From the NCBI GenBank assembly GCA_034620365.1, contig JAQGEQ010000332.1, positions 1 to 64,000 on the forward strand: a stretch of 64,000 nt of DNA, read 5' to 3'. The notes under the pieces are model-generated. The model had not been told where the DNA came from. It saw only the letters and a list, made by a program, of their open reading frames with translations, and searched no databases. This document shows positions 1-29,039 of the stretch, piece after piece. This stretch comes from Pegea sp. RAD2-039. Taxonomy: Eukaryota; Chordata; Thaliacea; Salpida; Salpidae. The translations under genes and the position numbers were made by a program. Position 1 is the stretch's first letter. Each line of letters starts with the position of its first letter.

Positions 1-689
1 TATTGAATCAATTTTCAAAACTAAAATCCGTCGCTTCATATACAACTTTTTCTTATAGATTCAAAAGTCTGGTTGCCAATCTCGACTCAATTAATTTAGG
101 CTACAAAATTTTTAAACTATCTACAAAAACTAAATATGACTCATCGTTTTAAAAAAGAGTCCCAAATACATTTAACTACAAACAAGTTTCAAGAACTTTA
201 GTTTCCTGTAGAACTGAATAGTTTACAATCATATGACAAATCACAATCATTTGATAAAGTGCAATCTTATATGTGACATCAAGAATGGTTTATGAAAGAA
301 AATATTTCTTCACTAATTTCTTAACTGGTTATTTTTTCACTCAAGATTTAAAAAAAATTAAATTGAGAATTACTTATTGGGTAGAACCAAACAACAAGAG
401 TCTTTTTCTACTACTAGTCAATTCATTAGTGTGGTTCTCCGGGAATTCATTCTGAGTCCCTTTTAATGTCGATGGTAGTTGAATTCCTCATCTTGAGACT
501 TGTAGTAATATATGAAATCAGTGTGTTTCTATCTACAGATAATTTTAAGTTAATTTAAGTTAAGATAATCACATAGTTCCTAAAAATCACAAACAGTTGT
601 ATGAGTTATAGAAGACTGATCAATTAATTATGAATCTTTAGAGGTGATTTAATCCTACGCCACTTTTCCCCAACTCACTAATGTCCTGT
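1..689. other. No gene seen; left end of unit 1
   Basis: AT-rich sequence with only a short open frame (273-455) that lacks an ATG start and has no recognisable motif. It is preserved in unit 2 (13,903-14,085) simply because the whole unit is duplicated. Confidence 0.5.
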
Positions 690-1400
690 CTAAGCTGTTG
701 GACAAAATACCTGGCGGATATAGGACTGAAACAAATGATCCTTTTCCTATATGTTGAATGACAGAGAATATCTGCTAAAAACGATCAAGACTTCATCCTC
801 ACTTTCCATATATTTATTTAAGTTGTTAGAATGACTTTTGTGATTGGAAAAAGAAAAGAAAAATTTTATCAAAAAATTATATTATCACCAAACAAGTTGA
901 GTAGCTTATAAAAGAATTAAAGCCACCAACAGATGATGAAAAAATTATCAGTAACTTCTCTAAGCAAGAAAAAATATTTTAAAAAAGTATCTTTATCGAG
1001 TTGTAATCAATTGTTAAAATCAGTTCAATACCAATTACTCAAAAGAACAAAGAAGGTGAATGTGCTTTTAAACCAGACATACTGGTGGATCGGTATTTCT
1101 TAAGGTTGAACCAAAAAGACTACTAGTAGCAGCACAAAGTCATTCACTACTTACTACATTGTTGCAAGCAAAAATTATCAGAAGTTACTAACGTAGACAA
1201 ATGAAGAGTTTGTAAAACTAAACTTGAAACCATCGGTCATATCACATCAGATTGTTGGTTAATCGCAGAAAAAGAAACTTTTATCCCCATAACAAATTAG
1301 CAAAATACATTCACTTTGGCATCAAACAGACCGAGAACATGGAAACAACGACAGGATATTCTTCCAAAACATAAAACAATAAAATTTTCTTACGAATAGA
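690..1400 (+). mobile_element. Decayed LINE-type retrotransposon C-terminal region, unit 1
   Basis: Conceptual translation of about 1,110-1,340 shows the C-terminal region seen after the reverse transcriptase in several LINE families. There is an AAQ-type segment (VAAQSHSL), then CKTK, then H-x4-C, then a residue run ending before a KE/YPHN stretch that binds the pattern C-x2-C-x(n)-H-x4-C. The first expected cysteine position reads TGA, and an in-frame TAA lies just upstream. This copy also lost a base near 1,279, which breaks the frame before the YPHNK motif. Sequence from about 690 probably belongs to the same element but is too degraded to read. It is a pseudogene with no activity expected. 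Confidence 0.6.
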
Positions 1401-2200
1401 CGTTGCATTACCAAGCGATACAAATATATCGATTTCTTCAAGTTTTTTATGAGAACTTTAAATCAAATCTGATCGTGAAATTCATTGAAAAATATTAGGA
1501 AAAATTGAAATTCCTACCAATTAAAAAATAGACTTTTTTAGGAACAGCTCACATACTACTTAAACTTCTTATTGAACTTTTCATAACTTCTATTTTATAC
1601 TTGTTCCATATTCTTACTGAATGATATCATCTGCAATACTATGAATTGCACCCTAACCAAATCTTTAAAGCAATGGAACAATTCATATGTTTTATATTTC
1701 TTCGTTTTTATAACTCTTAAAGATGCGCATTTAAAATCACTTTTATTATTTGTTTTTCATAAACTTGTAGCCTAAATTACGTTGTTTGTGATTGGCAATC
1801 AGACTCTTAAATATATTCAAGTTAGCTTAGAATTTGCAGAATATCTTCAGTAATGATTTAAAGGCCTTGCATTATATGGTTTGAACAGTTTTTGAATGAG
1901 TTTAGATTTAGATACCAACAAGTTAGACGATTATAACTTTGTCAAAAGTTTAAAGTTTTAATGTAAATTCAATTAAAAATAAGCTTTTTCCAAACGCAAA
2001 TCACATGTCAACAATATTTTTAAACATTTGTGTTGGTATAAGACAATTTTAAATGGAAAAGATATTGTTTATATTTTTTTAATGTGTTACGTAAAGCGTT
2101 GTGTTAGACAATTACGTATCTACATAAATATTTCGAATAATGAGGAAATTGGTCATGTTTTACTATAAACATTTTCAAACAAACAAACAAAATGTTGTAC
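1401..2200. other. Upstream flank of ILP-A1, no gene seen
   Basis: AT-rich DNA without a supported exon. Its last 350 bp or so are homologous to the upstream flank of ILP-C1 on the minus strand (12,790-13,270), so they probably contain the A-type promoter. Confidence 0.5.
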
Positions 2201-2210
2201 TATAAAAAGA
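2201..2210 (+). promoter_or_regulatory. Candidate TATA box of ILP-A1
   Basis: TATAAAAAGA lies 241 bp before the ATG. The same element occurs at the matching place in front of ILP-A2 (15,831), and as TATAAAGAGA in front of ILP-C1 (minus strand, 12,967-12,976), followed in each by a conserved ACTTCAAGTT-like stretch. Conservation between diverged paralogs supports function. Confidence 0.55.
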
Positions 2211-2253
2211 CTTCAAGTTGAAAGTTGTACCATTATTAACTTCTATAGTTGTT

Positions 2254-2413
2254 GTAAATTGTTACACAACGAAGGATATTTAATTTTAAAAGAAATCCTT
2301 TTCTGTTCTTGAATTATACTATATTATTCTTTATTTCATCATTATACTATATATTTTAATTTATGTTTTACTTTTAATTTTAATTTATTTTAAAAAGTGT
2401 TGTTTATTTCAAG
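2254..2413 (+). other. Putative 5'-UTR intron of ILP-A1
   Basis: A GTAAATT donor-like site about 50 bp after the TATA box and a TTTCAAG acceptor 28 bp before the ATG frame a 160-bp AT-rich interval. The ILP-B genes have equivalent sites (7,372-7,541), and ILP-C1 has the same arrangement. Alternatively the acceptor could receive a trans-spliced leader. This is inference from splice signals only. Confidence 0.4.
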
Positions 2414-2441
2414 AAAATTAATTTGTTGTTAAAATACGAAA

Positions 2442-3231
2442 ATGTTTATAAAGTTTGGAACATTCATTGCAGTGGTAACGCTTTATCTCTATCAATGTGA
2501 AGCAAATGCTGACTGGAAATCAATTTGTGCTAACAGAAATCCATACACTCTTTTTAAGGTCTGTTCAGATGATTATGCAAAAGTTTTTCAGTGTGTTTGT
2601 CCATCTGTTCAAAATAACTTGAATAGAATTCTGACTAATCCTGCAAACAGTGGACTGAGAAGATTTCTTCGTGTAGCATGTAGAAGTAAAACACAAATTC
2701 TAATCTTAAATAATAACTTTTATTCTGATAACTTATATTTGACTAAATATAAGTTTTACTAATTTTATAAGGCAAAAGTTTCAAATATTTTCGTTCAGAA
2801 ATATATTATAGAAATGTAAAGAATATAAATATATTAATTTCAGGCAATTCCAAAAAATTAGCAGAAACATTTGAACGAAGATCCAATTACCTTCCAGGAA
2901 CTTTAAATTTGTTTTGCACCTATATTAGAAATCGCCAGTAAGTTTGTTTTCGTTAATATAATTTTCATTTTTTTATATCTAAATAATTCTGTAATTAAGT
3001 TATTTATTTGTGTTTCATCAAAACTAATTACTATTACATAACTAACATTTTTGAAAAATAAACTAAAACTTGTTTTAAAGATATTGATTATATATTAACT
3101 TAGTAAATTAAAATAATTCATAGATTTTTTAACAATTCAGCCGTTTACTGCACAGAATTCCTTATTCGGATCTTGCTAAACGATGCTGTTATCATTCCTG
3201 TAATAAAAGATTAATTCAACTATATTGCTAA
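2442..3231 (+). CDS. Insulin-like peptide precursor, ILP-A1
   Basis: Three coding exons: 2442-2685, 2844-2937 and 3141-3231, joined in phases 1 and 2, giving 142 residues. Residues 1-23 form a signal peptide (cut after EANA). The B chain follows, with C41-x11-C53 matching the spacing of insulin B chains, plus extra cysteines C29 and C51. RR at 73-74 is a likely processing site. The connecting segment carries C80 and C106 and further basic sites (RR 93-94). KR at 126-127 directly precedes the A chain, which reads CCYHSC then eight residues then C142 and then stop, an exact fit to the insulin-family signature. The phase-1 intron in the connecting region is the classical insulin intron. The product is expected to be a secreted ligand for an insulin-type receptor. 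The start is chosen by the signal peptide and by the ACGAAA-ATG context shared by all paralogs. Alternatives such as relaxin-like or nematode-type insulin grouping cannot be resolved here. Confidence 0.92.
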
Positions 3232-6200
3232 ATGAGCAATACAGAGATGATGAAGAGGATGTAACTATCTGAAATTTCATCAAAAGCTTCTCAGTGTTCT
3301 AACATTTCTCTGTTTCTTCTCAATCAGCTGAAACTAATTTATAGCTATACTTGGTATAAAAATATAAATAAACTAGTTATCTGAAAAAGATTGTGATCAT
3401 TTTGTGAATACTTTTATATAGTATTTTAAAGAAATGATATTTTGAAATCTGTTACTAATAAAGGTAATTAAATAAAGATTTTGACTTCAATGAATAAGAT
3501 TAGCTGCAACATAATAGAATAATTTATCAATTATTGGTTTAATAATATATTATAAAGAAACTTAAAATATAAAGAATAACTCTAACTTATTTCAGTAGAG
3601 AGAAGCTTTGATTTTATAAAGTTGAACGTAAAGCAGACTGATAAGTTTAGAAAAAAAACTTTTAAAAACTTCTTAGTGGTTCAATATCTTCTTGAAGTTT
3701 CAAATAGTGTTATAGTTTTATCTTATAATTGTCACCAACATTTTTGATTAAATTTGACTTACCATTTTACCAAAAAATAAAAAGTTTGTGAAAATGAACT
3801 TCAATAATAAAGCTTCAAATAAAAACTAATCTAGGTAATTTGCTGCACATAAATACTAATGTTGATTTCACATACAAAATTAACAATATCTTTTATCTTC
3901 GATAAGTCTGTATATCACAAGTTATCAGGTGAGGAAGAGTTATTTGGTGACTTTTTAGTCTCTAATCTGTAGAAATAAGAAAAAAATCCAACAAATTATA
4001 TAATCTTAGAAAATTAACCAATTCTCAGTTCTTTTACTGAAGCAATTACATATTAGAAAATCTGTTAAATAAACTGAAATTTTTTGGGCTTCAATAATTT
4101 TCTTTTGCACTGTTTTCAAAATACTAATAAAAAGTAGAAATTTCGGTTGAAGTTATTTCTATAAGTCTGTCAACGGAGCTACTGATTCTAGGTAGCTTCG
4201 GAGAATATTAACTTTATCTAAGAAAAAATAAAGCTGCAAAGCAAACAGACAAACTATTCGTAAAATGAATTTATTTCCTAATTGTTTTGTTATAATTAAA
4301 TATGTCATCATAATACTAAAATAAAAATAATCACAAACTAGTTAATCAAAATTTCCTATATAAAAATTAAGTTACTTGGTCACCTAACTTTAAAATGATA
4401 CTATTGCTGATTAACTGATTTTTCTTTAAAAACTCCAATTAATTATAAATAAAAACGTTTCTTGTTCTAGTTTTAGATTTATACTTTTAATAAGATATTA
4501 GATTTGAAATTATTTCAGAATATCTTTAGTGTAATAATAAATCCCAAACTGTTTAATTGCTGATAAGCTTGAAACTTTATTTTATTTTTAATGTTGATGT
4601 TATCAAATTAAACGTTTACTGAAATCACTAAAAAAGCCTTATTTGGTGAAATTTATAAAATAAAAAATTTGAAAAAAAGGTGTTTATAAAAAAGGTTTTG
4701 GAAAATTTTGCAATATTTTTCTACTCATATTTTTGGTTTATACCCACTTGAAAGGCTCTTGAAATTGTAAATCAAAACCACGTGTCGTATGAATAGATTA
4801 TAAAATAACTTTAGGAAAACCAACTTAATATCTTTGATTTCGTTTAAAAATACTGATTAATAGAATTTGTTTCAAATTAAAGTTAGCTTTTAGTAGCTTG
4901 TTTTTTAATGGTTAAAATTATATATATAATTATGTAATTTCAATAAACAATATTGAAAATAATTGGCTCAAATTAAATTTAAAACTTAATTAGAACTTAA
5001 TGCTAAATGATCTCACTAACAAGAACTAAGAAACTAACTCACAAGAGTATTTAGTAATTTCTTAGTCTTTGATTTAATAACCTATTATATAAAAAGATGA
5101 AATTTGATTAACAGCTCTTAATAGAATAGTTTAACAAAGTTATTGGTTTAATGATTTTTTATATAGAAAGTTAAAGTTTAATGGATAAATCTAAGTTACT
5201 ACAGTTTAAAAAAGTTTTAGTTTTGTAAAGCTGAATGCAAAACAGACTGATAAAGTTAGAACAAATAATTTAAAAGATTTTTTCTTTTGTAGTTAAATAT
5301 CTTTGTAAAGCTTCAAATGTAGTTATAGTTTGATCTTATAATTGTCATAAATATATTTTTCAAAATTTGAGTTACCTTTTAATAAAAAACATAAAAAAGT
5401 TTTTTTAAACAAGCTTCAATAATAACGCTTCAAATAAAAACTAATCTAAGTAACTTGCCTCACATAATTACTGATGTTGATTTGAAATAATTTATTAATA
5501 ATTTCGTTTATCATCATTAAGTCTTTATGTCTGAAGTTATCGTGTGAGGAATAGTTTTATTTGGTGACATTTTAGCCTCCGATAAGTAATAAAATGAAAG
5601 AAATCTAGTAAAAGATATGTTCCTGGAAAACAAACTAATTGTCAAGTCTTTTACTGAAGCAAAAACATATTAGAAAATTAGTTAATCAAACTGATTATTT
5701 TAGAGCTGAAATAATTTACTTTTTTTGTACTAAGTTTTCAAAATACTAATTACTGTAAAAATTTTTGATGATTTTTTTATGAGCCTGTTAACGAAGCTAC
5801 TGATACTAGCTAGCTTCAGAAAATATTAACGTGATCTAAGAAAAAATAAGATGCAGAAAAACATGAAAACTTTTCATAAACTGAATTTATTTTCTAATTA
5901 TATTGTTATAATTAAATTTGTTGTCGTAATCCTAAAATGAAATTAATGACAAACTAGTTAACAAAAATTTCAAAGATAAAATTTATGTTACTTGGTCACC
6001 TAACTTGAAAATGATATTACTGCTGATTAACAGAATGTTGTTGAAAAACTCCAATTACTTATAAAAAACGTTTGTTGTTGTAGTTTTAGAATTATACTTA
6101 TACTAAGATATTACTTTTGAAATTACTTCAGAATATCTTTAGTATAATAATAAATCGAAAATTGTTTAATGCTGATAAGCTTGAAACTTTTATTTATTTT

Positions 6201-6420
6201 CTAATGTTGATGTTATCAAATTATTCCAAGTTTTACTGATATCATAAAAAAAGTCATATTTGGTGAAATATTTAATACTAAAATTATCAAACAAAAGGTG
6301 TTTAAAAAAATGTTTTGCAAAGTGTTGAGTTTAGAAAAATTTTGAAAAAGAAGTTTGAATAATAATTATACTACATAAGCATAATTTGTTATATTTTGAT
6401 GTAAGCTAATATATTTAAAA
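3232..6420 (+). repeat. Post-A spacer: two diverged ~1.6-kb tandem repeats
   Basis: The spacer begins immediately after the ILP-A1 stop and is homologous to the spacer after ILP-B1 (8,327-10,990) and, inverted, to the first 500 bp after ILP-C1. Within it, one block recurs about 1.6 kb later: for example the GTTATCAGGTGAGGAA segment near 3,925 is matched near 5,540, and the TACTTGGTCACCTAACTT segment near 4,372 is matched near 5,988. No exon is seen. An AATAAA at 3,367 could serve ILP-A1. Confidence 0.8.
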
Positions 6421-7311
6421 TCATTTTTGAATGGATAGATTTTCTTCTACACTACAAAATTAAAACTGTGGTATTTGGTATTATTTGTTTTTTAACTAAT
6501 TGTATCGTTTTGTGAAAAATAAAAAAAGTGAAATTTTATTTATTGAAAAGTGAAATTTATAGTAAATTTTATTTCCCACTATGTTTTAAACAAATAATTA
6601 AATATGAATAAATATAAAGAAAAAAGTTGAATAGATGGAAAAATGAAGTCCAAGGAAAATATAAATAAAAACAAAATAAATAAATATATAAAAAAATAAG
6701 ATAAATAGAAAAATTATGAAATAAAAATTATAAACAAACTTAAAAGAATAGATAATTAACTACATATAAGAAATAATTTAATTTTTAAAAAATTCTTATT
6801 TTTAACTGCGTACACTTTTGATTATTTAATCACAGAAAGTTATTTCAATAGTTTTCTATATAAATGAATAAAATACTTTGTAGAAATCACTATTGATATT
6901 TATTTACTTTTCCTTAGTAAAACTTCTGTTATTAAGTCAAAGCATAATTAACTAAATTTAATTTTTATAGATTTTATGATAGTAGATTGTAAAAACTAAA
7001 TTTTCATTAAAGATATTCCACATTAATTGGAAATACAATTATCAAAAAGTATCAACATAAATGCACTTAAATGAATAAATTGTGTGAATTTAAATTGCTT
7101 TTGGACAACAGATATAAAACTAGATAAAATTTCCAGGATGATTTTTGTAAATTGTTATAAATTTGTAAATATTATAACTAAAAAAATACTTTTCTATATA
7201 CAAATATACAAAAATATTTATTTATTTGTTTTTATTTATTAACTAAACGTTTCGTGAAAATCTGAAATCATTTTTCATTTAAAAGTAAATAAATAAACAA
7301 ACATTTTTTAG
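6421..7311. other. AT-rich upstream flank of ILP-B1, no gene seen
   Basis: Very AT-rich sequence with many AAATA runs. It is shared with unit 2 and with the third partial copy, but not with the A-type upstream region. Confidence 0.5.
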
Positions 7312-7320
7312 TATAAAAGG
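7312..7320 (+). promoter_or_regulatory. Candidate TATA box of ILP-B1
   Basis: TATAAAAGG lies about 250 bp before the ATG. It is conserved before ILP-B2 (20,941-20,949), and as TATAAAACG in the orphan copy (26,024). Confidence 0.55.
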
Positions 7321-7371
7321 AACTCAAAATCAAACTTGAATAAGAAGTTTTAACAACATACTGAGATTGTT

Positions 7372-7541
7372 GTAATTTTCTTCAAAGCTAAAGAACTTTC
7401 ATTTGAAAACGAAATCGTTCTCTTAGCTAATAGCATATTATATGAAAATTTGCCTTTAACGTGATGCTTTTTATCTTGTTGTTTTTTATGCAAACATTGT
7501 ATTTAAGATGAAGTAATTTTTCAATTTTCTCTTCTCCTCAG
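7372..7541 (+). other. Putative 5'-UTR intron of ILP-B1
   Basis: A GTAATT donor-like site and a strong pyrimidine-rich acceptor (TTCTCTTCTCCTCAG, ending at 7,541) 28 bp before the ATG. The acceptor is one of the best 3' splice sites in the region, and the leader length matches that of ILP-A. It could instead be a trans-splicing acceptor. Confidence 0.5.
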
Positions 7542-7569
7542 ATATTGAGATTCTTAACAAACTACGAAA

Positions 7570-8326
7570 ATGTTTAAGTTTGGAATAATCTTCTTAATAG
7601 CTATGCTTTATGTGTGTCAGTGTCAAGCTGATGTCGCAGCAATGTGTGCCGCCGAAAATGATTTCCCACTTACAGTGTGTGGAGCAGATTTCTATCCTGT
7701 CTTTAAGTGTGTATGTCCAACAAAGCAACAAAAACTTTATAAATTCTACTACGACGAGAAGAACAGTTTTTTTAGAAGATTTATTAGTGTGGCTTGCACA
7801 AGTTGTAAGTTTTTTATCATTTCTCATAAGCTTCTTTCAATTAAAGAAATACTTCGAGCTTAATTTAAGTGGCAGAAAAGTTGGTAGAAAAGCTTTTATC
7901 AAAAATCTTTTTAACTTCAGTGAAACGTTACGTAGCCTTGAATATGTTTGAAGTCTTTAACCAACCTGAAGGAAGCTTGGACTTATATTGCCAAGTTTAC
8001 AAACATCAATTGTAAGTTGACTTCTTCAGTTTTAATATCCTATGATTAGTATTTTCATTGTCAAGATAAACGGGTTGTATAAGTTGTCATTGAACTTTTG
8101 TAAGCTAAAAATACATTTCGTTTTTAATTAATATTTAAGGTTTTAGTAATACTAAGTTTTGTACAACTTTATTAGTTATACAAATTTAATTTATTTACAA
8201 GAAATAAGCGAAAATTACTTTTCGAGTTTGATGAATAATTCTTTTTTTAGGCCCCGTATGTCTAGTCTTCGAACCAAATGCTGCAACGAATCATGTACTA
8301 AGGACTACATGGCACTATTTTGCTAA
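7570..8326 (+). CDS. Insulin-like peptide precursor, ILP-B1
   Basis: Exons 7570-7804, 7921-8011 and 8251-8326 join in phases 1 and 2 to give 133 residues. A signal peptide spans about 1-20 (MFKFGIIFLIAM core). The B chain contains C37-x11-C49 (VCGAD...CVCP), with extra C26 and C47. RR at 69-70 follows the B chain. The connecting segment holds C76, KR at 80-81 and C102. The A chain begins at C119: CCNESC, eight residues, then C133 and stop. It is preceded by RTK rather than a clear dibasic site, so final processing may differ from ILP-A. The gene lies about 4.3 kb downstream of ILP-A1 on the same strand with its own, unrelated promoter. It is expected to be a secreted hormone or growth-factor ligand. 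The first exon reads on past its donor into a short open tail that should not be taken as protein. Confidence 0.92.
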
Positions 8327-10990
8327 ATGAGTAATAAAAAGATGATGATGAAGATGTAACTATTTGAAGTTTCATCAAAAGCTTCTCACTATTCTAACAT
8401 TTCTCTATTTCTTGTCAATCGGCTGAAGTTATTTTCTAACTATATTCGGTATAAAAATTTAATTAAACTATTTATCTGAAGAAACTTGTGATCATTTCGT
8501 GAATACTTCTATATGGTATTTGAAAAAATATATATTTTGACATCTGTTAGTAATAAAAGTAATTAGATAAAGATTTTGAGCTTGACCAATAAGATCAGCT
8601 GCAACTTGATAGAAAAATTTATCAGTTATTAGTTTAAAAATCTATTATCTAGAAAGATGAAGTATAAAGAATAACTCTAACTTATCTCAGTTGAGATAAG
8701 TTCTGTTTTATATAGTTGAACGTAAAGTAGACTGATAAGTTTAGAATAAAAACTTTTAAAGACTTCTTAGTGGTTAAATAACTTGTTAAAGTATCAATTA
8801 GTGTTATAGTTTTATATTTTAATTGTCACCAACATTTTAGATAAAATTTGACTTACCATTTTACCAAAACACAAAAAAAGTTTATGAAAATAAACTTCAA
8901 TAATAACGCTTGAAATAAAAACAAATCTAAGTAGTTTGCTGCACATAAATACTGATGTTGATTTCACATGAAAAATTAACAAAATATTTTTTCCTCATTA
9001 AATCTTTATATCACAAGTTATCAGGTGAGGAATAGTTATTTGGTGACTTTTTAGCTTCTGAAAACCAGAACAATAAAAAAAATCCACCAAATTATATAAT
9101 CCTAGAAAATTGATCAATTCTCAGTTCTTTTACTGAAACAATTGCATATTAGAAAATCTGTTAATTAAACTGAAATTTTTATGGCTGGAATTATCTTATT
9201 TTTGCACTATGTTTTCAAAATACTAATTAAAGTATAAGTTTTGTTTGAATTTAATTTTAGATACTTGTCAAGGGAGGTACTGATTTTAGATAGGTTCATA
9301 AAATATTAACTTGATCTTAGAATAATTAAAGCTGCAAAACAAATGTAAAAACTATTCGTAAACTGAATTTATTTCGAAACTATTTTGTTATAATTAGATT
9401 TGTCATCATAATCATAAAATAAATTTAATGACAAACTAGTTAAGGAAAATTTTAAACATAAAATTTAAATAACTTGGTCATTTAATATGAAAATGATATT
9501 ACTGCTGATTAACAGAATGTTCTTTAAAAACTCCAATTACATAAATAAAACGTTTCTTGTTGAAGTATTAGATTTATACTTTTACTAAAATATTAGATCT
9601 CAAATTAATTTGGAATATCTTTAGTGTAATAAAGGATCGCAAAATGTTTAATGCTGATAAGCTTGAAACTTTATTTAATTTTTAATGTTGATGTTTTCAA
9701 ATTAAACGTTTACTGAAATCATTAAAAAATCCATATTTGTTGAAATATATAAAATAAAAAATTTGTAAAAAAGTTGTTTAAGAAAAAGGTTTTGGAAAAT
9801 TTTGGACTATTTTTTTACTCATAATTTTGGTTTTTACCCATTTCGAGGGCTGTTGAAACTGAAAAGCAAACCCACGTGGCGTATGAATAGATTACAAAAT
9901 TACTTTAGGAAAACCAACTATATATCTTTGATTTTGTTTAAAAATACTTACTGCTTAATAGAATTTGTTTCAAATTACAGTTAGCTTTTAGTAGTTTGTT
10001 TTTCAAAGGTTAAAATTATATTTATGTAACTTCAATAAATAATATTGAAAATAATTGGCTCAGATTAAATTGAAAACTTAATTAGGTTGTATTGCTAAAT
10101 GCACTCACTAACAAGAACTAAGAAATTACTCACAAGAGTTTTTAGTATTTTCTTAGTCTGTGATTTAACAACTTATTGTATAGAAAGACGAAGTTTGATT
10201 AATAGTACTTTTTAAAATACCATAGCAAAATAATTTGATCAATGATCTTTTATATAGAAAGTTAAAGTTTAATAGATAAATCTTTTCAAAACTTTTTTTG
10301 TACTATGTTTTCAAAATACTAATTACAGTATAAATTATTGATGATTTTTCTATGAGCCTGTTAATGGAGCTACTACTAATGGATACTAGCTAGCTTCAGA
10401 AAATATTAACGTGATCTAAGAAAAAATAAGATGCAGAAAAACATAAAAACTTTTCATAAACTGAATTTATTTTATAATTATTTTGTTATAATTAAATTTG
10501 TTGTCATATTCCTAAAATGAAATTAATGACAAACTAGATGACGAAAATTTCAACCAAAAAATTTAAGTTACTTGGTCACTTAACATGAAAATAATATTAC
10601 TGCTGAAAAACAGAATTTTCTTTAAAAACTCCAATTACTAATAAAAAAAAAATGATTCTTGTTGTAGTTTTAGAGTTATACTTATAATAAGATATTAGTT
10701 TTGAAATTACTTCAGATCATCTATAGTATAATAATAAATCGCAAATTGCTTAATGGTGATAGGCTTGAACTCTTATTTATTTTCTAATGTTATCTTTATC
10801 AAATTATTCAAACTTTTACTGAAACATCAAAAAATCCGTATTTAGCGGTATATTTAATATTAAAATTATCAAACAAAAGGTGTTTAAGAAAAAAGTTTTG
10901 AAAAGTCTTGAGTTAAGAGAAATTGTGAAAAAGAATTGTGATTAATTATATAAATAAGTATAATTAGTCATATTTTGATGTAAGCTAATA
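8327..10990 (+). repeat. Post-B spacer, homologous to the post-A spacer
   Basis: Alignable by eye to 3,232-6,420 along most of its length. Around 10,283 it has lost about 520 bp relative to the post-A spacer (the equivalent of about 5,193-5,717). Contains a short open frame (9,802-9,984) with no coding support. Confidence 0.75.
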
Positions 10991-11379
10991 CATTTAAAAT
11001 CAATTCTGTTCAAATACTATTCAAATCAATCTAACGTCTTTTTTCAAAAATTTTTAATAAATGTTGTTTTAACTTGAAATGTTTGTTTGCCATTAGACAA
11101 TTCATAGATGTTTTTTATTAAAAGCATTTCATGCATATAGTGTCAGTTGGTTTAAGACAGGAAGATCTGGCAATGGTTCCTAAGAAAAATGTCACTTTTC
11201 TAAATGAACTAAAGGAATACTACTCGGTACATCTATTTCCATTTTGCTAAGGCATTTGAATCTGTCTTAAACGTGCTGAATAATTCTTACTTGGCAACAA
11301 TAAAAAGCCAACAGTTTTAGTTTAAGTAGATTGATGATTACTGTTTGATAAAATCCAATGAGCCTATAATAAGATTTAT
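10991..11379. other. Unique segment between convergent spacers, no gene seen
   Basis: This stretch separates the plus-oriented post-B spacer from the inverted post-C spacer. I see no exon, repeat or RNA gene in it. Confidence 0.4.
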
Positions 11380-11905
11380 AAAAAAAAATATATTTTCTAA
11401 AACATTTTTATGAATTTTTAAATATTAAACATTAACAACATTTGAAACTTCAAAAAGATATATAATTACAAAAGATAAAATCTTTTAAAGCTTATAATCT
11501 AAGTTTATCAGTCTGCTGTTCATTCAACTTTATAAAATCAAAATTCTCTAAACTGAAATAAGTTAGAGTTATTCATTAAACTTCAATTTTCGAAATAATA
11601 GATTTTTAAACCAACTACTGATAAGTTAATCTATCAAGTTGCAGCTGATTTTATTCATTGAAGTAAAAATCTTTATCTAATTACTTGTAATACTAACAGA
11701 TGTCAAAATATAGTACTATTTAAAAGTGTTCACGAAATGATCACCAGCTTTTTCAAATAAATAGTTTATTTATATTTGTATACCGATTATAGTTAGAAAT
11801 TAGTTTTAACTGATTGAGAAGAAACAGAGAAATGTTAGAACAGTGAGATTCTTTTGATGAATTTTCCAATAATTACATCTTCTTCATCATCTCTTTATTA
11901 CTCAT
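11380..11905 (-). repeat. Post-C spacer, inverted copy of the ILP 3' flank
   Basis: On the minus strand this follows the ILP-C1 stop and matches the first 500 bp after ILP-A and ILP-B, including the TTTCATCAAAAG-like and TTTCTCTGTTTCTTCTC-like stretches. It shows that the 3' flank travels with the gene during duplication. Confidence 0.7.
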
Positions 11906-12669
11906 TTAGCAATGTTGTGCCATGTAGTCTGCAGTACATGATTCTCTGCAGCACTTGTTTTGGAGACGAGCTATACGAGGGCTACAAGAAGAGATTTTAT
12001 TTAAACTAAACAATTTATTTTTGTTTGTTTCTTGCAATTAAATTGATTTTGTATAACTCTTAAAGTTGTAACTAATCATTATTACTAAAAGTTTAGATAT
12101 CAATTAAAACAGAAATGTATATTTAGTTGACAAAATTTTAATGACAATTTATACAACCTGATTATGTTTACCATCAAACTACTAATCATAAGATATTAAA
12201 ACTGTTGAAGTAAACTTACAAGTGATGTTCGTACATCTGGCAATATAAGTCGAAGCTTCCTTTAGGTTGTTCGAACACATCAAACATATACAAGGCTAGG
12301 AAACGATCCACTGAAATTGAAAACATCTTTGATTAAAGATTTTTAAAATCTTTATACCAACTTTACTGCCAATCAATATAGATCGAAATATTTGTTTAAT
12401 TGAAAGATCTTTAACAGAAATAATAAAAACTTACAATCTTTGCAAGCCACAGGAATCAATCTTCTGAACAAACTGTTCTTCTCAGCGTAGTAGAAGTTAT
12501 ATAAATTGAGATTGTTTGCTGGACAAACACATTTAAAGACCTGATCGAAATCGTCTCCACAGACTTGAAGCGGAGATTTGTAGCTGGCCGCACACATTGC
12601 TGAGCTTTCACCTTGACACTGACACACATAGAGCATAGCTATTAAGAAGATTATTCCAAACTTGAACAT
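11906..12669 (-). CDS. Insulin-like peptide precursor, ILP-C1 (inverted)
   Basis: Minus-strand exons 12435-12669, 12220-12310 and 11906-11981 have exactly the lengths and phases of ILP-B and encode 133 residues. The signal peptide is nearly identical to that of ILP-B (MFKFGIIFLIAM). The B chain has C37-x11-C49 plus C26 and C47, and RR at 69-70. The connecting segment carries C76 and C102, but the KR at 80-81 of ILP-B is replaced by DR. The A chain is CCRESC, eight residues, C133, stop, and is preceded by QNK. Cysteine positions match ILP-B one for one, while many other residues differ, so it is an older paralog than the A1/A2 and B1/B2 pairs. Its upstream region is of A type, which makes it a promoter-swap chimera. 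No counterpart exists in unit 2. Confidence 0.9.
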
Positions 12670-13270
12670 TTTCGTAGTTGGTTAGGTAGCTCAATATCTG
12701 ATAAGAAAAGAAAATTAAAAAATTGATTCAACTTAAGTAAACTGTTTGTATAAAAAGCAGCAAGATAAAAACCAACACTTTTAAAAATATATCAGTTTGT
12801 AACAAGGTAAAACATAAATTAAGATATATAATATAAGGATAAAATAAACTCTAATAAAATATAATTAAAGAAAAAAAATGATTTCTTTTAAAATCAAATA
12901 TCTTTCGTTGTGTAACAATTTACAACAATCATAAAAGTTAGCAATGTTAAAACTTTGAACTTGAAGTCTCTTTATAGAACTACAATTTGTTTATTTGTTT
13001 GTAAATGTTTATAATAAAACATAACTAATTGTATTACTATTTTAAATATTTATGTAATTACGTAATTGTCTAACACAATGATTCACGTATATGTAAATTA
13101 ATATAAACAATATACTTTATTTGAAACTTTCTTATAACAATAAAAATGTTTAGAATATTGTTGACATGTAAGTAGCATTTGAAAAAAACTATTTTTAAAT
13201 TTATTATACCACTTAAAGTTTCAAACGTTCAATATAATTCTAATCGTTTAGCTTGCTGGTATTTAAATTA
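12670..13270 (-). promoter_or_regulatory. Chimeric upstream region of ILP-C1
   Basis: Reading away from the gene, about 12,670-12,780 resembles the ILP-B leader (an ATATTGAG segment, a TTTTTCAATTTT-like acceptor tract, and a TTTATACAAAC stretch). Beyond about 12,785 it matches the ILP-A promoter instead: TATAAAGAGA at 12,967-12,976, the TTACACAACGAAAGATA segment, and the TTAGACAATTACGT segment near 13,070. The switch falls near a shared AAAAGTGTTG. Confidence 0.7.
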
Positions 13271-13630
13271 AACTCTATTAAAAAAAATTTCAAAACATAT
13301 ATTGTAAGAACTTCCAAATTCTACTAAAGATATTCTTTAAACTCTAAGCTAAGCTATACTTCTAAAGATTAGTATAGAATTGTAAATTTTTCAAAGTAGT
13401 TTATAAATATAAAAGATAACTTTGAAATTAAGCAGCAAACTTGAAACTGATTTCTTATCATTAATTTACTAAGATCACTAATATAAGAAACTTACTAGTA
13501 ATAAATATTATTAATAATTGTAATAATAGTAATGATAACAGTTATAATAAATTAAATAATAAACCCTGTTGAAAGACCTGAGCTTTATAATTAAGACAGA
13601 TATTAATGACTGCCCGAACAGCTAGATTTC
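13271..13630. other. Right end of unit 1, no gene seen
   Basis: AT-rich sequence without a supported feature. It has no counterpart within this window, because the region equivalent to it in unit 2 was lost. Confidence 0.4.
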
Positions 13631-14319
13631 TATTGAATCAATTTTCAAAACTAAAATCCGTCGCTTCATATACAACTTTTTCTTATAGATTCAAAAGTCT
13701 GGTTGCCAATCTCGACTCAATTAATTTAGGCTACAAAATTTTTAAACTATCTACAAAAACTAAATATGACTCATAGTTTTAAAAAAGGGTCCCAAATACA
13801 TTTAACTACAAACCAGTTTCAAGAACTTTAGTTTCCTGTAGAACTGAATAGTTTACAATCATATGACAAATCGCAATCATTTGATAAAGTGCAATCTTAT
13901 ATGTGACATCAAGAATGGTTTATGAAAGAAAATATTTCTTCACTAATTTCTTAACTGGTTATTTTTTCACTCAAGATTTAAAAAAAATTAAATTGAGAAT
14001 TACTTATTGGGTAGAACCAAACAACAAGAGTCTTTTTCTACTACTAGTCAATTCATTAGTGTGGTTCTCCGGGAATTCATTCTGAGTCCCTTTTAATGTC
14101 GATGGTAGTTGAATTCCTCATCTTGAGACTTGTAGTAATAGATGAAATCAGTGTGTTTCTATCTACAGATAATTTTAAGTTAATTTAAGTTAAGATAATC
14201 ACATAATTCCTAAAAATCACAAACAGTTGTATGAGTTATAGAAGACTGATCAATTAATTATGAATCTTTAGAGGTGATTTAATCCTACGCCACTTTTCCC
14301 CAACTCACTAATGTCCTGT

Positions 14320-15030
14320 CTAAGCTGTTGGACAAAATACCTGGCGGATATAGGACTGAAACAAATGATCCTTTTCCTATATGTTGGATGACAGAGAATA
14401 TCTGCTAAAAACGATCAAGACTTCATCCTCACTTTCCATATATTTATTTAAGTTGTTAGAATGACTTTTGTGATTGAAAAAGAGAGGAAAAATTTAATCA
14501 AAAAATTATATTATCCCCAAACAAATTGAGTAGCTTATAAAAGAATTAAAGCCACCAACAGATGATGAAAAAATTATCAGTAACTTCTCTAAGCAAGAAA
14601 AAATCTTTTAAAAAAGTATCTTTATCGATTTGTAATCAATTGTTAAAATCAGTTCAATACCAATTACTCAAAAGAACAAAGAAGGTCAATGTGCTTTTAA
14701 ACCAGACATACTGGTGGATCGGTATTTCTTAAGGTTGAACCAAAAAGACTACTAGTAGCAGCACAAAGTCATTCACTACTTACTACATTGTTGCAAGCAA
14801 AAATTATCAGAAGTTACTAACGTAGACAAATGAAGAGTTTGTAAAACTAAACCTGAAACCATCGGTCATATCACATCAGATTGTTGGTTAATCGCAGAAA
14901 AAGAATACTTTTATCCCCATAACAAAGTAGCCAAATATATTCACTTTGGCATCAAACAGACCGAGAACATGGAAACAACGACAGGATATTCTTCCAAAAC
15001 ATAAAACAATAAAATTTTCTTACGAATAGA
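14320..15030 (+). mobile_element. Decayed LINE-type retrotransposon C-terminal region, unit 2
   Basis: Duplicate of the element at 690-1,400. This copy keeps one base lost in unit 1, so the motif KEYFYPHNKVAKYIHF can be read in frame after the CKTK and H-x4-C residues (about 14,840-14,952). The TGA before the VCKTK motif and the upstream TAA are shared, so the element was already dead before the duplication. The longer reading in unit 2 shows which unit carries the later damage. Confidence 0.65.
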
Positions 15031-15830
15031 CGTTGCATTACCAAGCGATACAAATATATCAATTCATTCAAGTTTTTTATGAGAACTTTAAATCAAATCT
15101 GATCGTGAAATTCATTGAAAAATATTAGTAAAAATTGAAATTCCTACCAATTAAAAAATAGACTTTTTTAGGAACAGCTCACATACTACATAAACTTCTT
15201 ATTGAACTTTTCATAACTTCTATTTTATACTTGATCCATATTCTTACTGAATAATATCATCTGCAATACTATGAATTGCACCCTAACCAAATCTTTAAAG
15301 CAATGGAACAATTCATATGTTTTATATTTCTTCGTTTTTATAACTCTTAAAGATGCGCATTTAAAATCACTTTTATTATTTGTTTTTCATAAACTTGTAG
15401 CCTAAATTACGTTGTTTGTGATTGGCAATCAGACTCTTAAATATATTCAAGTTAGCTTAGAATTTGCAGAATATCTTCAGTAACAATTTAAAGGCCTTGC
15501 ATTATATGGTTTGAACAGTTTTTGAATGAGTTTAGATTTAGATACCAACAAGTTAGACGATTATAACTTTGTCAAAAGTTTAAAGTTTTAATGTAAATTC
15601 AATTAAAAATAAGCTTTTTCCAAACGCAAATCACATGTCAACAATATTTTTAAACATTTGTGTTGGTATAAGACAATTTTAAATGGAAAAGATATTGTTT
15701 ATATTTTTTTAATGTGTTACGTAAAGCGTTGTGTTAGACAATTACGTATCTACATAAATATTTCGAATAATGAGGAAATTGGTCATGTTTTACTATAAAC
15801 ATTTTCAAACAAACAAACAAAATGTTGTAC

Positions 15831-15840
15831 TATAAAAAGA
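15831..15840 (+). promoter_or_regulatory. Candidate TATA box of ILP-A2
   Basis: TATAAAAAGA, identical in sequence and spacing to that of ILP-A1. Confidence 0.55.
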
Positions 15841-16071
15841 CTTCAAGTTGAAAGTTGTACCATTATTAACTTCTATAGTTGTTGTAAATTGTTACACAAC
15901 GAAGGATATTTAATTTTAAAAGAAATCCTTTTCTGTTCTTGAATTATACTATATTATTCTTTATTTCATCATTATACTATATATTTTAATTTATGTTTTA
16001 CTTTTAATTTTAATTTATTTTAAAAAGTGTTGTTTATTTCAAGAAAATTAATTTGTTGTTAAAATACGAAA

Positions 16072-16861
16072 ATGTTTATAAAGTTTGGAACATTCATTGC
16101 AGTGGTAACGCTTTATCTCTATCAATGTGAAGCAAATGCTGACTGGAAATCAATTTGTGCTAACAGAAATCCATACACTCTTTTTAAGGTCTGTTCAGAT
16201 GATTATGCAAAAGTTTTTCAGTGTGTTTGTCCATCTGTTCAAAATAACTTGAATAGAATTCTGACTAATCCTGCAAACAGTGGACTGAGAAGATTTCTTC
16301 GTGTAGCATGTAGAAGTAAAACACAAATTCTAATCTTAAATAATAACTTTTATTCTGATAACTTATATTTGACTAAATATAAGTTTTACTAATTTTATAA
16401 GGCAAAAGTTTCAAATATTTTCGTTCAGAAATATATTATAGAAATGTAAAGAATATAAATATATTAATTTCAGGCAATTCCAAAAAATTAGCAGAAACAT
16501 TTGAACGAAGATCCAATTACCTTCCAGGAACTTTAAATTTGTTTTGCACCTATATTAGAAATCGCCAGTAAGTTTGTTTTCGTTAATATAATTTTCATTT
16601 TTTTATATCTAAATAATTCTGTAATTAAGTTATTTATTTGTGTTTCATCAAAACTAATTACTATTACATAACTAACATTTTTGAAAAATAAACTAAAACT
16701 TGTTTTAAAGATATTGATTATATATTAACTTAGTAAATTAAAATAATTCATAGATTTTTTAACAATTCAGCCGTTTACTGCACAGAATTCCTTATTCGGA
16801 TCTTGCTAAAAGATGCTGTTATCATTCCTGTAATAAAAGATTAATTCAACTATATTGCTAA
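16072..16861 (+). CDS. Insulin-like peptide precursor, ILP-A2
   Basis: Exons 16072-16315, 16474-16567 and 16771-16861 encode a 142-residue protein that I read as identical to ILP-A1. The only coding change noticed is synonymous: the R of the KR site before the A chain is AGA here and CGA in ILP-A1. Introns and about 2 kb of upstream sequence are also nearly unchanged. It therefore has the same predicted secretion signal, ten-cysteine pattern and A chain (CCYHSC-x8-C). It represents a very recent extra dose of the same ligand. Confidence 0.92.
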
Positions 16862-19800
16862 ATGAGCAATACAGAGATGATGAAGAGGATGTAACTATCT
16901 GAAATTTCATCAAAAGCTTCTCAGTGTTCTAACATTTCTCTGTTTCTTCTCAATCAGCTGAAACTAATTTATAGCTATACTTGGTATAAAAATATAAATA
17001 AACTAGTTATCTGAAAAAGATTGTGATCATTTTGTGAATACTTTTCTATAGTATTTTAAAGAAATGATATTTTGAAATCTGTTACTAATAAAGGTAATTA
17101 AATAAAGATTTTGACTTCAATGAATAAGATTAGCTGCAACATAATAGAATAATTTATCAATTATTGGTTTAATAATATATTATAAAGAAACTTAAAATAT
17201 AAAGAATAACTCTAACCTATTTCAGTAGAGAGAAGCTTTGATTTTATAAAGTTGAACGTAAAGCAGACTGATATGTTTATAAAAAAACTTTTAAATACTT
17301 CTTAGTGGTTCAATATCTTCTTGAAGTTTCAAATAGTGTTATAGTTTTATCTTATAATTGTCACCAACATTTTTGATTAAATTTGACTTACCATTTTACC
17401 AAAAAATAAAAAGTTTGTGAAAATGAACTTCAATAATAAAGCTTCAAATAAAAACTAGTCTAGGTAATTTGCTGCACATAAATACTAATGTTGATTTCAC
17501 TTACAAAATTAACAATATCTTTTATCTTCGATAAGTCTGTATATCACAAGTTATCAGGTGAGGAAGAGTTATTTGGTGACTTTTTAGTCTCTAATCTGTA
17601 GAAATAAGAAAAAAATCCAACAAATTATATAATCTTAGAAAATTAACCAATTCTCAGTTCTTTAACTGAAGCAATTACATATTAGAAAATCTGTTAAATA
17701 AACTGAAATTTTTTGGGCTTCAATAATTTTCTTTTGCACTGTTTTCAAAATACTAATAAAAAGTAGAATTTTCGGTTGAAGTTATTTCTATAAGTCTGTC
17801 AACGGAGCTACTGATTCTAGGTAGCTTCGGAGAATATTAACTTTATCTAAGAAAAAATAAAGCTGCAAAGCAAACAGACAAACTATTCGTAAAATGAATG
17901 TATTTCCTAATTGTTTTGTTATAATTAAATATGTCATCATAATACTAAAATCAAAATAATCACAAACTAGTTAATCAAAATTTCCTATATAAAAATTAAG
18001 TTACTTGGTCACCTAACTTTAAAATGATACTATTGCTGATTAACTGATTTTTCTTTAAAAACTCCAATTAATTATAAATAAAAACGTTTCTTGTTCTATT
18101 TTTAGATTTATACTTTTAATAAGATATTAGATTTGAAATTATTTCAGAATATCTTTAGTGTAATAATAAATCCCAAACGGTTTAATTGCTGATAAGCTTG
18201 AAACTTTATTTTATTTTTAATGTTGATGTTATCAAATTAAACGTTTACTGAAATCACTAAAAAAGCCTTATTTAGTGAAATTTATAAAATAAAAAATTTG
18301 AAAAAAAGGTGTTTATGAAAAAGGTTTTGGAAAATTTTGCAATATTTTTCTACTCATATTTTTGGTTTTTACCCATTTGGAGGGCTGTTGAAATTGTAAA
18401 TCAAAACCACGTGTCGTATGAATAGATTATAAAATAACTTTAGGAAAACCAACTTAATATCTTTGATTTCGTTTAAAAATACTGATTAATAGAATTTGTT
18501 TCAAATTAAAGTTAGCTTTTAGTAGCTTGTTTTTTAATGGTTAAAATTATATATATAATTATGTAATTTCAATAAACAATATTGAAAATAATTGGCTCAA
18601 ATTAAATTTAAAACTTAATTAGAACTTAATGCTAAGTGATCTCACTAACAAGGACTAAGAAACTAACTCACAAGAGTTGTTAGTAATTTTTTAGTCTTTG
18701 ATTTAATAACCTATTATATAAAAAGATGAAATTCGATTAAAAGCTCTTGATAGAATAGTTTAACAAAGTTATTGCTTTAATGATTTTTTATATAGAAAGT
18801 TAAAGTTTAATGGATAAATCTAAGTTACTACAGTTTAAAAAAGTTTTAGTTTTGTAAAGCTGAATGCAAAACAGACTGATAAAGATAGAACAAATAATTT
18901 AAAAGATTTTTTCTTTTGTAGTTAAATATCTTTGTAAAGCTTCAAATGTAGTTATAGTTTGATCTTATAATTGTCATAAATATATTTTTCAAAATTTGAG
19001 TTACCTTTTCATAAAAAACATAAAAACGTTTTTTTAAACAAGCTTCAATAATAACGCTTCAAATAAAAACTAATCTAAGTAACTTGCCTCACATAATTAC
19101 TGATGTTGATTTGAAATAATTTATTAATAATTTCGTTTATCATCATTAAGTCTTTATGTCTGAAGTTATCGTGTGAGGAATAGTTTTATTTGGTGACATT
19201 TTAGCCTCCGATAAGTAATAAAATGAAAGAAATCTAGTAAAAGATATGTTCCTGGAAAACAAACTAATTGTCAAGTCTTTTACTGAAGCAAAAACATATT
19301 AGAAAATTAGTTAATCAAACTGATTATTTTAGAGCTGAAATAATTTACTTTTTTTGTACTAAGTTTTCAAAATACTAATTACTGTAAAAATTTTTGATGA
19401 TTTTTTTATGAGCCTGTTAACGAAGCTACTGATACTAGCTAGCTTCAGAAAATATTAACGTGATCTAAGAAAAAATAAGATGCAGAAAAACATGAAAACT
19501 TTTCATAAACTGAATTTATTTTCTAATTATATTGTTATAATTAAATTTGTTGTCGTAATCCTAAAATGAAATTAATGACAAACTAGTTAACAAAAATTTC
19601 AAAGATAAAATTTATGTTACTTGGTCACCTAACTTGAAAATGATATTACTGCTGATTAACAGAATGTTGTTGAAAAACTCCAATTACTTATAAAAAACGT
19701 TTGTTGTTGTAGTTTTAGAATTATACTTTTACTAAGATATTACTTTTGAAATTACTTCAGAATATCTTTAGTATAATAATAAATCGAAAATTTTTTAATG

Positions 19801-20050
19801 CTGATAAGCTTGAAACTTTTATTTATTTTCTAATGTTGATGTTATCAAATTATTCCAAGTTTTACTGATATCATAAAAAAAGTCATATTTGGTGAAATAT
19901 TTAATACTAAAATTATCAAACAAAAGGTGTTTAAAAAAATGTTTTGCAAAGTGTTGAGTTTAGAAAAATTGTGAAAAAGAAGTTTGAATAATAATTATAC
20001 TACATAAGCATAATTTGTTATATTTTGATGTAAGCTAATATATTTAAAAT
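16862..20050 (+). repeat. Post-A spacer, unit 2
   Basis: Copy of 3,232-6,420 with scattered single-base differences. It has the same two internal ~1.6-kb repeats and no gene. The following 890 bp up to the ILP-B2 promoter is the AT-rich B-type upstream flank. Confidence 0.8.
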
Positions 20051-20940
20051 CATTTTTGAATGGATAGATTTTCTTCTACACTACAAAATTAAAACTGTGG
20101 TATTTGGTATTATTTGTTTTTTAACTAATTGTATCGTTTTGTGAAAAATAAAAAAAGTGAAATTTTATTTATTGAAAAGTGAAATTTATAGTAAATTTTA
20201 TTTCCCACTATGTTTTAAACAAATAATTAAATATGAATAAATATAAAGAAAAAAGTTGAATAGATGGAAAAATGAAGTCCAAGGAAAATATAAATAAAAA
20301 CAAAATAAATAAATATATAAACAAATAAGATAAATAGAAAAATTATGAAATAAAAATTATAAACAAACTTAAAAGAATAGATAATTAACTACATATAAGA
20401 AATAATTTAATTTTTAAAAAATTCTTATTTTTAACTGCGTACACTTTTGATTATTTAATCACAGAAAGTTATTTCAATAGTTTTCTATATAAATGAATAA
20501 AATACTTTGTAGAAATCACTATTGATATTTATTTACTTTTCCTTAGTAAAACTTCTGTTATTAAGTCAAAGCATAATTAACTAAATTTAATTTTTATAGA
20601 TTTTATGATAGTAGATTGTAAAAACTAAATTTTCATTAAAGATATTCCACATTAATTGGAAATACAATTATCAAAAAGTATCAACGTAAATGCACTTAAA
20701 TGAATAAATTGTGTGAATTTAAATTGCTTTTGGACAACAGATATAAAACTAGATAAAATTTCCAGGATGATTTTTGTAAATTGTTATAAATTTGTAAATA
20801 TTATAACTAAAAAAATACTTTTCTATATACAAATATACAAAAATATTTATTTATTTGTTTTTATTTATTAACTAAACGTTTCGTGAAAATCTGAAATCAT
20901 TTTTAATTTAAAAGTAAATAAATAAACAAACATTTTTTAG

Positions 20941-20949
20941 TATAAAAGG
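20941..20949 (+). promoter_or_regulatory. Candidate TATA box of ILP-B2
   Basis: TATAAAAGG at the same distance from the ATG as in ILP-B1. Confidence 0.55.
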
Positions 20950-21198
20950 AACTCAAAATCAAACTTGAATAAGAAGTTTTAACAACATACTGAGATTGTT
21001 GTAATTTTCTTCAAAGCTAAAGAACTTTCATTTGAAAACGAAATCGTTCTCTTAGCTAATAGCATATTATATGAAAATTTGCTTTTAACGAGATGCTTTT
21101 TATCTTGTTGTTTTTTATGCAAACATTGTATTTAAGATGAAGTAATTTTTCAATTTTCTCTTCTCCTCAGATATTGAGATTCTTAACAAACTACGAAA

Positions 21199-21955
21199 AT
21201 GTTTAAGTTTGGAATAATCTTCTTAATAGCTATGCTTTATGTGTGTCAGTGTCAAGCTGATGTCGCAGCAATGTGTGCCGCCGAAAATGATTTCCCACTT
21301 ACAGTGTGTGGAGCAGATTTCTATCCTGTCTTTAAGTGTGTATGTCCAACAAAGCAACAAAAACTTTATAAATTCTACTACGACGAGAAGAACAGTTTTT
21401 TTAGAAGATTTATTAGTGTGGCTTGCACAAGTTGTAAGTTTTTTATCATTTCTCATAAGCTTCTTTCAATTAAAGAAATACTTCGAGCTTAATTTAAGTG
21501 GCAGAAAAGTTGGTAGAAAAGCTTTTATCAAAAATCTTTTTAACTTCAGTGAAACGTTACGTAGCCTTGAATATGTTTGAAGTCTTTAACCAACCTGAAG
21601 GAAGCTTGGACTTATATTGCCAAGTTTACAAACATCAATTGTAAGTTGACTTCTTCAGTTTTAATATCCTATGATTAGTATTTTCATTGTAAAGATAAAC
21701 GGGTTGTATAAGTTGTCATTGAACTTTTGTCAGGTAGAAATACATTTCGTTTTTAATTAATTTTTAAGGTTTTCGTAATACTAAGTTTTGTACAACTTTA
21801 TCAGTTATACAAATTTAATTTATTTACAAGAAATAAGCGAAAATTACTTTTCGAGTTTGATGAATAATTCTTTTTTTAGGCCCCGTATGTCTAGTCTTCG
21901 AACCAAATGCTGCAACGAATCATGTACTAAGGACTACATGGCACTATTTTGCTAA
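21199..21955 (+). CDS. Insulin-like peptide precursor, ILP-B2
   Basis: Exons 21199-21433, 21550-21640 and 21880-21955 encode 133 residues, identical to ILP-B1 as far as I can read. Splice sites, the pyrimidine-rich leader acceptor and the A chain (CCNESC-x8-C) are preserved. The few differences from unit 1 lie in the introns and upstream, for example around 21,731 in intron 2. It is the last intact ILP of the array in this window. Confidence 0.92.
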
Positions 21956-28951: not shown

Positions 28952-29039
28952 AACTTGATATATTATAATTAAGATGTGATTGATAAAGATAAACTATCTA
29001 ACAAAAATAAATACAATGATGAAATAAAAAAAGAATCTA

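Follow-up and report, generated by a model that had tools for sequence, protein, structure and literature searches.

A tandem array of genes for divergent, probably insulin-related secreted peptides in a tunicate-like genome

What is encoded by a group of short, three-exon genes at the beginning of an animal contig, and do their products belong with the insulins? The question concerns positions 2442-21955 of the first 64,000 bases of contig C43 (C43:1-64000; GC content 25.5%), the stretch that was analysed as a whole and is referred to here as the window; the genome itself comprises 105.7 Mb in 387 contigs. An earlier note on this DNA had described the interval as a cluster of five insulin-like peptide genes. 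The analysis reported here makes it probable, from sequence comparisons, that these genes encode divergent secreted peptides of the insulin superfamily, arranged as a tandem array; each product may be a B-C-A molecule with five disulfides and a tethered C domain. The insulin-like character proposed in the earlier note was thus sustained in part: the A chain is well supported, the B chain moderately so, and gene A is constrained, but a two-chain form of the products is uncertain.

Spliced models identified five intact three-exon loci in 2442-21955, representing three gene types, named A, B and C. The five loci of three types had been placed correctly in the earlier note, the GT-AG models being open in 5/5, and the B-like C-x11-C segment and the separate third exon with C-C-x3-C-x8-C that it had described were present in every model. 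All introns are GT-AG, and in each of the five genes intron 1 is in phase 1 and intron 2 in phase 2. The spliced open proteins of A, B and C are 142, 133 and 133 residues long, respectively. Because a duplication of about 13.63 kb repeats A and B, the five loci are three genes and not five distinct ones; the two copies of A differ by one silent change in their coding sequences, and the coding sequences of the two B copies are identical. The features, with exons given as spliced models, are the following.

1..13630, no strand: repeat unit with A, B and C; A and B recur from 13631 on (offsets 13629/13630; 10,298-bp alignment, 97.2% identity)
2442..2685, plus strand: gene A copy 1, exon 1, with putative signal peptide, cysteine C1, the B-like C-x11-C segment, RR and cysteine C5; donor GTAAAA, phase 1
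2844..2937, plus strand: gene A copy 1, exon 2, C region with cysteine C6; acceptor TTTCAG, donor GTAAGT, phase 2
3141..3231, plus strand: gene A copy 1, exon 3, A chain CCYHSCNKRLIQLYC, then stop
7570..7804, plus strand: gene B copy 1, exon 1; donor GTAAGT, phase 1
7921..8011, plus strand: gene B copy 1, exon 2; acceptor CTTCAG, donor GTAAGT, phase 2
8251..8326, plus strand: gene B copy 1, exon 3, A chain CCNESCTKDYMALFC, then stop
12435..12669, minus strand: gene C, exon 1
12220..12310, minus strand: gene C, exon 2
11906..11981, minus strand: gene C, exon 3, A chain CCRESCTADYMAQHC, then stop; script alternative, exon from 12005
16072..16315, plus strand: gene A copy 2, exon 1
16474..16567, plus strand: gene A copy 2, exon 2
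16771..16861, plus strand: gene A copy 2, exon 3; protein identical to that of copy 1
21199..21433, plus strand: gene B copy 2, exon 1
21550..21640, plus strand: gene B copy 2, exon 2
21880..21955, plus strand: gene B copy 2, exon 3; coding sequence identical to that of copy 1; script alternative, exon from 21856

For exon 3 of gene B, an acceptor preceded by a T-rich tract was preferred over an alternative in-frame AG lying 24 nucleotides upstream, from which an automated script would begin the exon of copy 1 at 8227. The pattern C-C-x3-C-x8-C followed by a stop in an open frame occurs five times in the window, in each instance within these genes, and its mean occurrence was 0.005 per dinucleotide shuffle of the window (200 shuffles); none was found in window 26001-64000. 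A hydrophobic, signal-peptide-like N-terminus was computed for A, B and C. Upstream of the genes, sequence blocks are common to A (2150-2444), B (7290-7572) and C (12667-12950), TATA-like strings precede A and B, and AG sites situated just 5' of the start codons could be cis- or trans-splice acceptors.

The features held in common by these proteins were established from an alignment of five types, namely A, B, C and two diverged paralogs, D1 and D2, located on contig C278. Although identity to B is 26-66% across the types, 5/5 share ten mature cysteines, an Arg-Arg pair (residues 69-70 in B) and four further positions without any change. The six cysteines of the insulin pattern, C2 and C4 (positions B7 and B19) together with four in exon 3, had been recognized in the earlier note, but the four others that are equally invariant had gone unreported: C1 (ahead of the B segment), C3 (at B17), and C5 and C6 (both in the C region). 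The C2-x11-C4 spacing is kept in 5/5 types, and the A chain conforms to C-C-x3-C-x8-C in all five window genes and in D1 and D2, with its last cysteine directly preceding the stop codon in 5/5 window genes. The intervening C region, of about 70 residues, is encoded by the last part of exon 1, by exon 2 and by the first part of exon 3. Two other folds were considered for these cysteines and rejected, the eight-cysteine fold of the non-specific lipid transfer protein type, in which the order of CC and CxC differs, and that of phospholipase A2, the CC-x5-C spacing of which does not fit.

Evidence for a relationship to insulin was most direct with the A chain. When the A-chain segments were searched in isolation, Insulin (PF00049; cut-off, 23 bits) or Ins_beta (PF03488; cut-off, 21 bits) was the sole Pfam match in 5/5 types, at expectation values (E) of 0.0015-0.021 and with scores below the cut-off; the best Ins_beta score, obtained with the isolated A chain of D2, was 19.0 bits, short of its 21-bit cut-off. 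All four PDB matches of the 25-residue A-chain segment of B belong to the insulin superfamily, two being relaxin A chains (E 0.003 and 0.0035) and two being insulin-like peptide beta-type 5 (E 1.3 and 2.5). Full-length B likewise matched these two relaxin A chains (E 0.16 and 0.18), and with a profile of the five rows they ranked at the top (E 0.024 and 0.027), followed by three unrelated sequences. Shuffles of B, D1 and D2 in which the signal peptide and the cysteines were left in place yielded 0/9 insulin matches at E up to 10; a single shuffle had matches, to two unrelated families.

Column permutation extended the comparison to the B segment. Against reference chains consisting of six examples per set, with one chain from this genome added to the B set, 0/20,000 permutations scored as well as the A segment and 47/20,000 as well as the B segment, or 50 when the third cysteine was also fixed. 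Together with C-x11-C, the B segment presents hydrophobic residues at B6, B11, B15 and B18, and when searched in isolation it is not detected by Pfam. Among the full-length proteins, Insulin was matched by 4/5 and Ins_beta by 2/5, such that every protein has at least one of them, and the Insulin match in B and C starts at residue 35, corresponding to the B-like segment. The search of the spliced models with insulin-family profiles that the earlier note had proposed returned matches in every type, but none that reaches the cut-off. Taken from these comparisons, the A chain is assigned to the insulin type with high confidence, and the B chain is probably also of that type.

The window opens inside the array, which runs into the start of contig C43 and is larger than the window; the cluster of five described in the earlier note is present, but it is part of a larger array on other contigs. 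Protein B found at least 56 matches in the genome, exon by exon, and at least 25 exon-1 loci were counted, comprising six B, eight C, eight A-like, one degenerate B-like and the two diverged paralogs D1 and D2. Copies outside the window reside on contigs C79, C334, C335, C218 and C278. Intact three-exon models were obtained for 22/25 of the exon-1 loci (20 by script; D1 and D2 by reading), the script taking the exon-3 acceptor 24 nucleotides farther upstream in 12/14 of the B and C models. Damage was found in an A copy at C79:20012-20278, an A copy at C334:11250-11513 and the B-like copy at C278:270336-270584, with intact copies adjoining; another A copy is interrupted by the end of C335, and several array copies are on contigs of 10-17 kb. 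D1 and D2 lie at C278:345965-351300, about 75 kb from A- and B-like copies, and keep all ten cysteines and both intron phases at 26% identity to B. In the C278 B-like copy, blocks near-identical to B alternate with diverged blocks, a patchwork that looks like gene conversion. Positions 1-8000 of C79 match window 35018-27010 at 97.6% and are followed by array sequence in a different gene order. This contig is read as the other haplotype, and as such it would imply that the copy number of the array is variable, but it may instead be a paralogous array. No relative was confirmed among 120 and 95 pattern matches in collections of viral and prokaryotic contigs, respectively, which say little on animals.

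Comparison of A with its paralog on C278 revealed nine nonsynonymous and ten synonymous changes, corresponding to a nonsynonymous distance (dN) of 0.027 and a synonymous distance (dS) of 0.119, with distances of 0.146 and 0.235 for the introns. By exon, dN was 0.029 and dS 0.425 in exon 3, and the ratio was 0.83 in exon 2, on four changes. With dN well below both dS and the intron distances, the protein encoded by A is therefore constrained.

A number of results count against the interpretation of these genes as insulin-superfamily genes encoding a five-disulfide molecule. No full-length protein (0/5 types) scores above the PF00049 cut-off, and the full-length matches are weak, both to Insulin (E 0.025 for D1, 0.057 for B, 2.1 for C and 4.6 for A) and to Ins_beta (E 0.008 for D2 and 0.12 for C). 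The N-terminal parts alone match insulin in Pfam in 0/5 cases, and that of D1 matches two unrelated Pfam families; since all five A-chain segments match insulin models and none of the N-terminal parts does, insulin homology is supported mainly by the A chain. The Insulin match of gene A covers the A chain only, and that of D1 has its start at residue 71, within the C region rather than at the C-x11-C segment, with full-length D1 also weakly matching three unrelated families. An hhalign comparison of the family with a separate insulin-like precursor encoded on contig C1 aligned only 19 A-chain columns, at a probability of 7.9% and E 0.0044. Gene B encodes a proline inside the putative B helix, and a basic pair before the A chain makes cleavage possible in A and D1. 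Furthermore, B and C evolve loosely with respect to one another (dN 0.215, dS 0.360, ratio 0.60), and in the mature part of exon 1 their dN of 0.29 slightly exceeds the intron distance of about 0.25. For D1 and D2 the ratio was 0.50, and 1.0 in exon 2. Judged by these distances, the B-C and D1-D2 pairs are weakly constrained, with what appears to be relaxed or diversifying change around fixed cysteines.

As the favoured interpretation has it, the three canonical disulfides would form (A6-A11, A7-B7 and A20-B19), and two more bonds would join the remaining four cysteines, namely the N-terminal one, B17 and both of those in the C region. The additional bonds would tether the C domain to the B helix, such that the C domain would stay even if the invariant Arg-Arg were cut. 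Retention of the C domain is considered probable because C5 and C6 are situated in the C region and because, in B, C and D2, the part of exon 3 that precedes the A chain is devoid of basic pairs. Once secreted, the five-disulfide B-C-A molecule would act as a ligand of an insulin-type or relaxin-type receptor. Key insulin receptor residues are not kept in the array proteins, and hence the receptor could be either a diverged one of the insulin type or one of the relaxin type. More tentatively, the genes may constitute a tunicate-specific class of the insulin fold with two extra disulfides, a permanent structured third domain and an array that varies between haplotypes. If this were so, a connecting peptide could become a fixed structural domain, the array would serve as a natural experiment to show which elements of the insulin scaffold can be lost without harm to folding or to the choice of receptor, and the sister group of the vertebrates would possess a relative of insulin in which a new, tethered domain faces the receptor.

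Alternatively, the insulin scaffold may have been recruited for a non-hormonal secreted role, for example a structural, defensive or recognition function, and such a role would account for the many near-identical copies. The differing gene order between contigs and the damaged copies in the array are consistent with this notion, as is the identity of the B and C signal peptides at 19/19 residues while the mature part diverges. Unequal exchange alone, however, also explains the recent copies, and a non-hormonal role is considered unlikely.

It is likewise unlikely, for a true hormone of the insulin superfamily, that processing follows the ordinary route, in which convertases would cut at the Arg-Arg and near the A chain to release two chains. 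The Arg-Arg is indeed invariant in 5/5 types, AKR directly precedes the CC of the A chain in A, RR stands four residues before the CC in D1, and A, B, D1 and D2 carry another basic pair after the first (C and the C278 paralog of A do not). Exon 3 of B, C and D2, however, contains no basic pair before the A chain, and the two invariant cysteines of the C region would hold that region on. The family thus lacks a conserved basic cleavage site ahead of the A chain, and formation of a standard two-chain insulin is uncertain.

Rather less probable is that the family represents a lineage-specific, ten-cysteine secreted protein unrelated to insulin, with an exon-3 pattern that arose by convergence. 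In favour of convergence are the N-terminal parts without an insulin match, the restriction of the hhalign comparison to the A chain, the sub-threshold full-length Pfam scores, and the four extra cysteines, which are as conserved as the six canonical ones. This reading fits poorly, however, with A-chain segments that match insulin models only in 5/5 types, with four of four PDB matches within the insulin superfamily, with 0/9 among the shuffles and with 47/20,000 for the B segment. NCBIfam, a prokaryotic library, produced no insulin match, and one of the five members matched one unrelated bacterial model (E 0.14); Rfam produced nothing in the window. Finally, an origin in random open frames, gene decay or faulty assembly, to which the damaged copies elsewhere and the several on 10-17-kb contigs might point, is highly improbable given five occurrences of the motif against 0.005, purifying selection on A, five intact genes out of five in the window, and divergence of the B-C pair and of A from its C278 paralog that is too great for assembly copies.

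Returning to the favoured reading, the array genes resemble the insulin, insulin-like growth factor (IGF) and relaxin family (PF00049) in their signal-peptide-like start, B-C-A order, C-x11-C, C-C-x3-C-x8-C and B-helix hydrophobic residues, but differ from it in having four more invariant cysteines, of which two belong to the C region, in scores below the Pfam cut-off and in a cleavage site before the A chain that is not conserved. The nematode beta-type peptides (PF03488) provide the sole Pfam match of the isolated A chains of B, C and D2, whereas this match is limited to the A chain and sub-threshold, and the host genome resembles that of a tunicate and not of a nematode. Relaxin A chains were the top PDB matches of the array proteins, yet the B-chain motif RxxxRxxI/V is absent from the B segments of all five types; RxxxRxxI in the B chain is said, in the accessible part of the source, to distinguish relaxins (PMC551602). 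The proposed retention of the C domain is reminiscent of the IGFs, but unlike these the array proteins end at the last A-chain cysteine, without D or E domains, and their C region is long and bears cysteines. Insulin-superfamily genes have also been described in ascidians, three in Ciona and two in Chelyosoma according to the accessible part of the report (PMC4361685); they are tunicate members of the superfamily, as the array genes probably are too. No family such as the present one appeared among the papers listed for tunicates and rotifers in the PMC open-access library, nor did the accessible part of a study on rotifer dormancy (PMC10821554) contain anything on genes of this sort; the family may have been annotated or published elsewhere.

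A Pfam Insulin search of the genome led to two loci outside the array and missed every array gene. Insulin relatives that are split between exons and score below threshold can escape six-frame searches, and the array genes may well be missed by automatic annotation, as the earlier note had supposed; the sub-threshold Pfam scores fit that expectation. A separate and more ordinary insulin-like precursor is encoded at C1:2086068-2086352, where Pfam Insulin matched above its cut-off (E 1.4e-6, 29.6 bits). This precursor shows the C-x11-C spacing and has basic sites ahead of its A chain, which follows C-C-x3-C-x9-C, one residue longer than the canonical pattern. Its intron in the C region is in phase 2 and shortly precedes the A chain, like intron 2 of the array genes, and this common phase-2 intron, a single character, supports common descent. 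The contig C1 precursor had no PDB match at E <= 10, indicating that the PDB sequence search is insensitive here. At C15:451606-451674, a possible lone A-chain exon (RRCC...) matched Pfam Insulin at E 0.23 and is taken as a lead only; a first exon was not recognized in the neighbouring part that was examined.

The nature of the host was assessed from marker genes elsewhere in the genome. A cellulose synthase domain is encoded at C14:69001-76218 (Cellulose_synt E 1.2e-7; Glyco_trans_2_3 E 6.8e-17), and GH6 exons (E 1.8e-8) follow it within a few kilobases, the two being putative parts of one gene; a second, diverged GH6 copy is present at C75:166369 (E 0.545). Among animals, a cellulose synthase with a GH6 portion is characteristic of tunicates, and in appendicularians two copies are known. 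Among 10 homeobox matches (E <= 1e-8), homeodomains of Hox1, Hox3, Hox4, Xlox, Cdx and two posterior genes were assigned by eye, and none of the Hox5-8 type was recognized by eye in that set. The two posterior homeodomains, Hox12- and Hox13-like, are 22 kb apart at C235:97051-119385, and in the ascidian Corella inflata, according to the accessible part of a study, Hox12 and Hox13 are linked as well (PMC7337526). From the cellulose synthase with GH6 exons and the linked Hox12/13-like genes, this looks like the genome of a tunicate. A nematode is disfavoured by a search for TTR-52 that gave nothing, and an arthropod by one for Chitin_bind_4 with the same outcome; both arguments are weak, since neither search had a match in any control genome. 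A rotifer was rejected: the Brachionus mmr-b primer (PMC3495898) had 0 hits at up to 3 mismatches, the bdelloid spliced-leader sequence likewise had 0 hits, and posterior-type Hox genes, which rotifers are said to lack (PMC5431905), occur here. A search for COX1 gave no match.

Other features of the window lie downstream of the array genes. Open frames rich in hydrophobic stretches are found on the minus strand at 44065-45119 and 52191-53204, and Pfam searches at E <= 1 gave nothing for the frame at 44844-45119 or for three frames within 52191-53204. A BTB-kelch gene of the KLHL type occupies 57100-59610 on the minus strand, with Pfam matches to BTB and Kelch_1, and further kelch-like frames were noted by eye. 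A second duplication, with an offset of about 7.1 kb, relates 26400-29000 to 33500-36100, and within it a coiled-coil open reading frame is repeated on the minus strand at 27130 and 34246.

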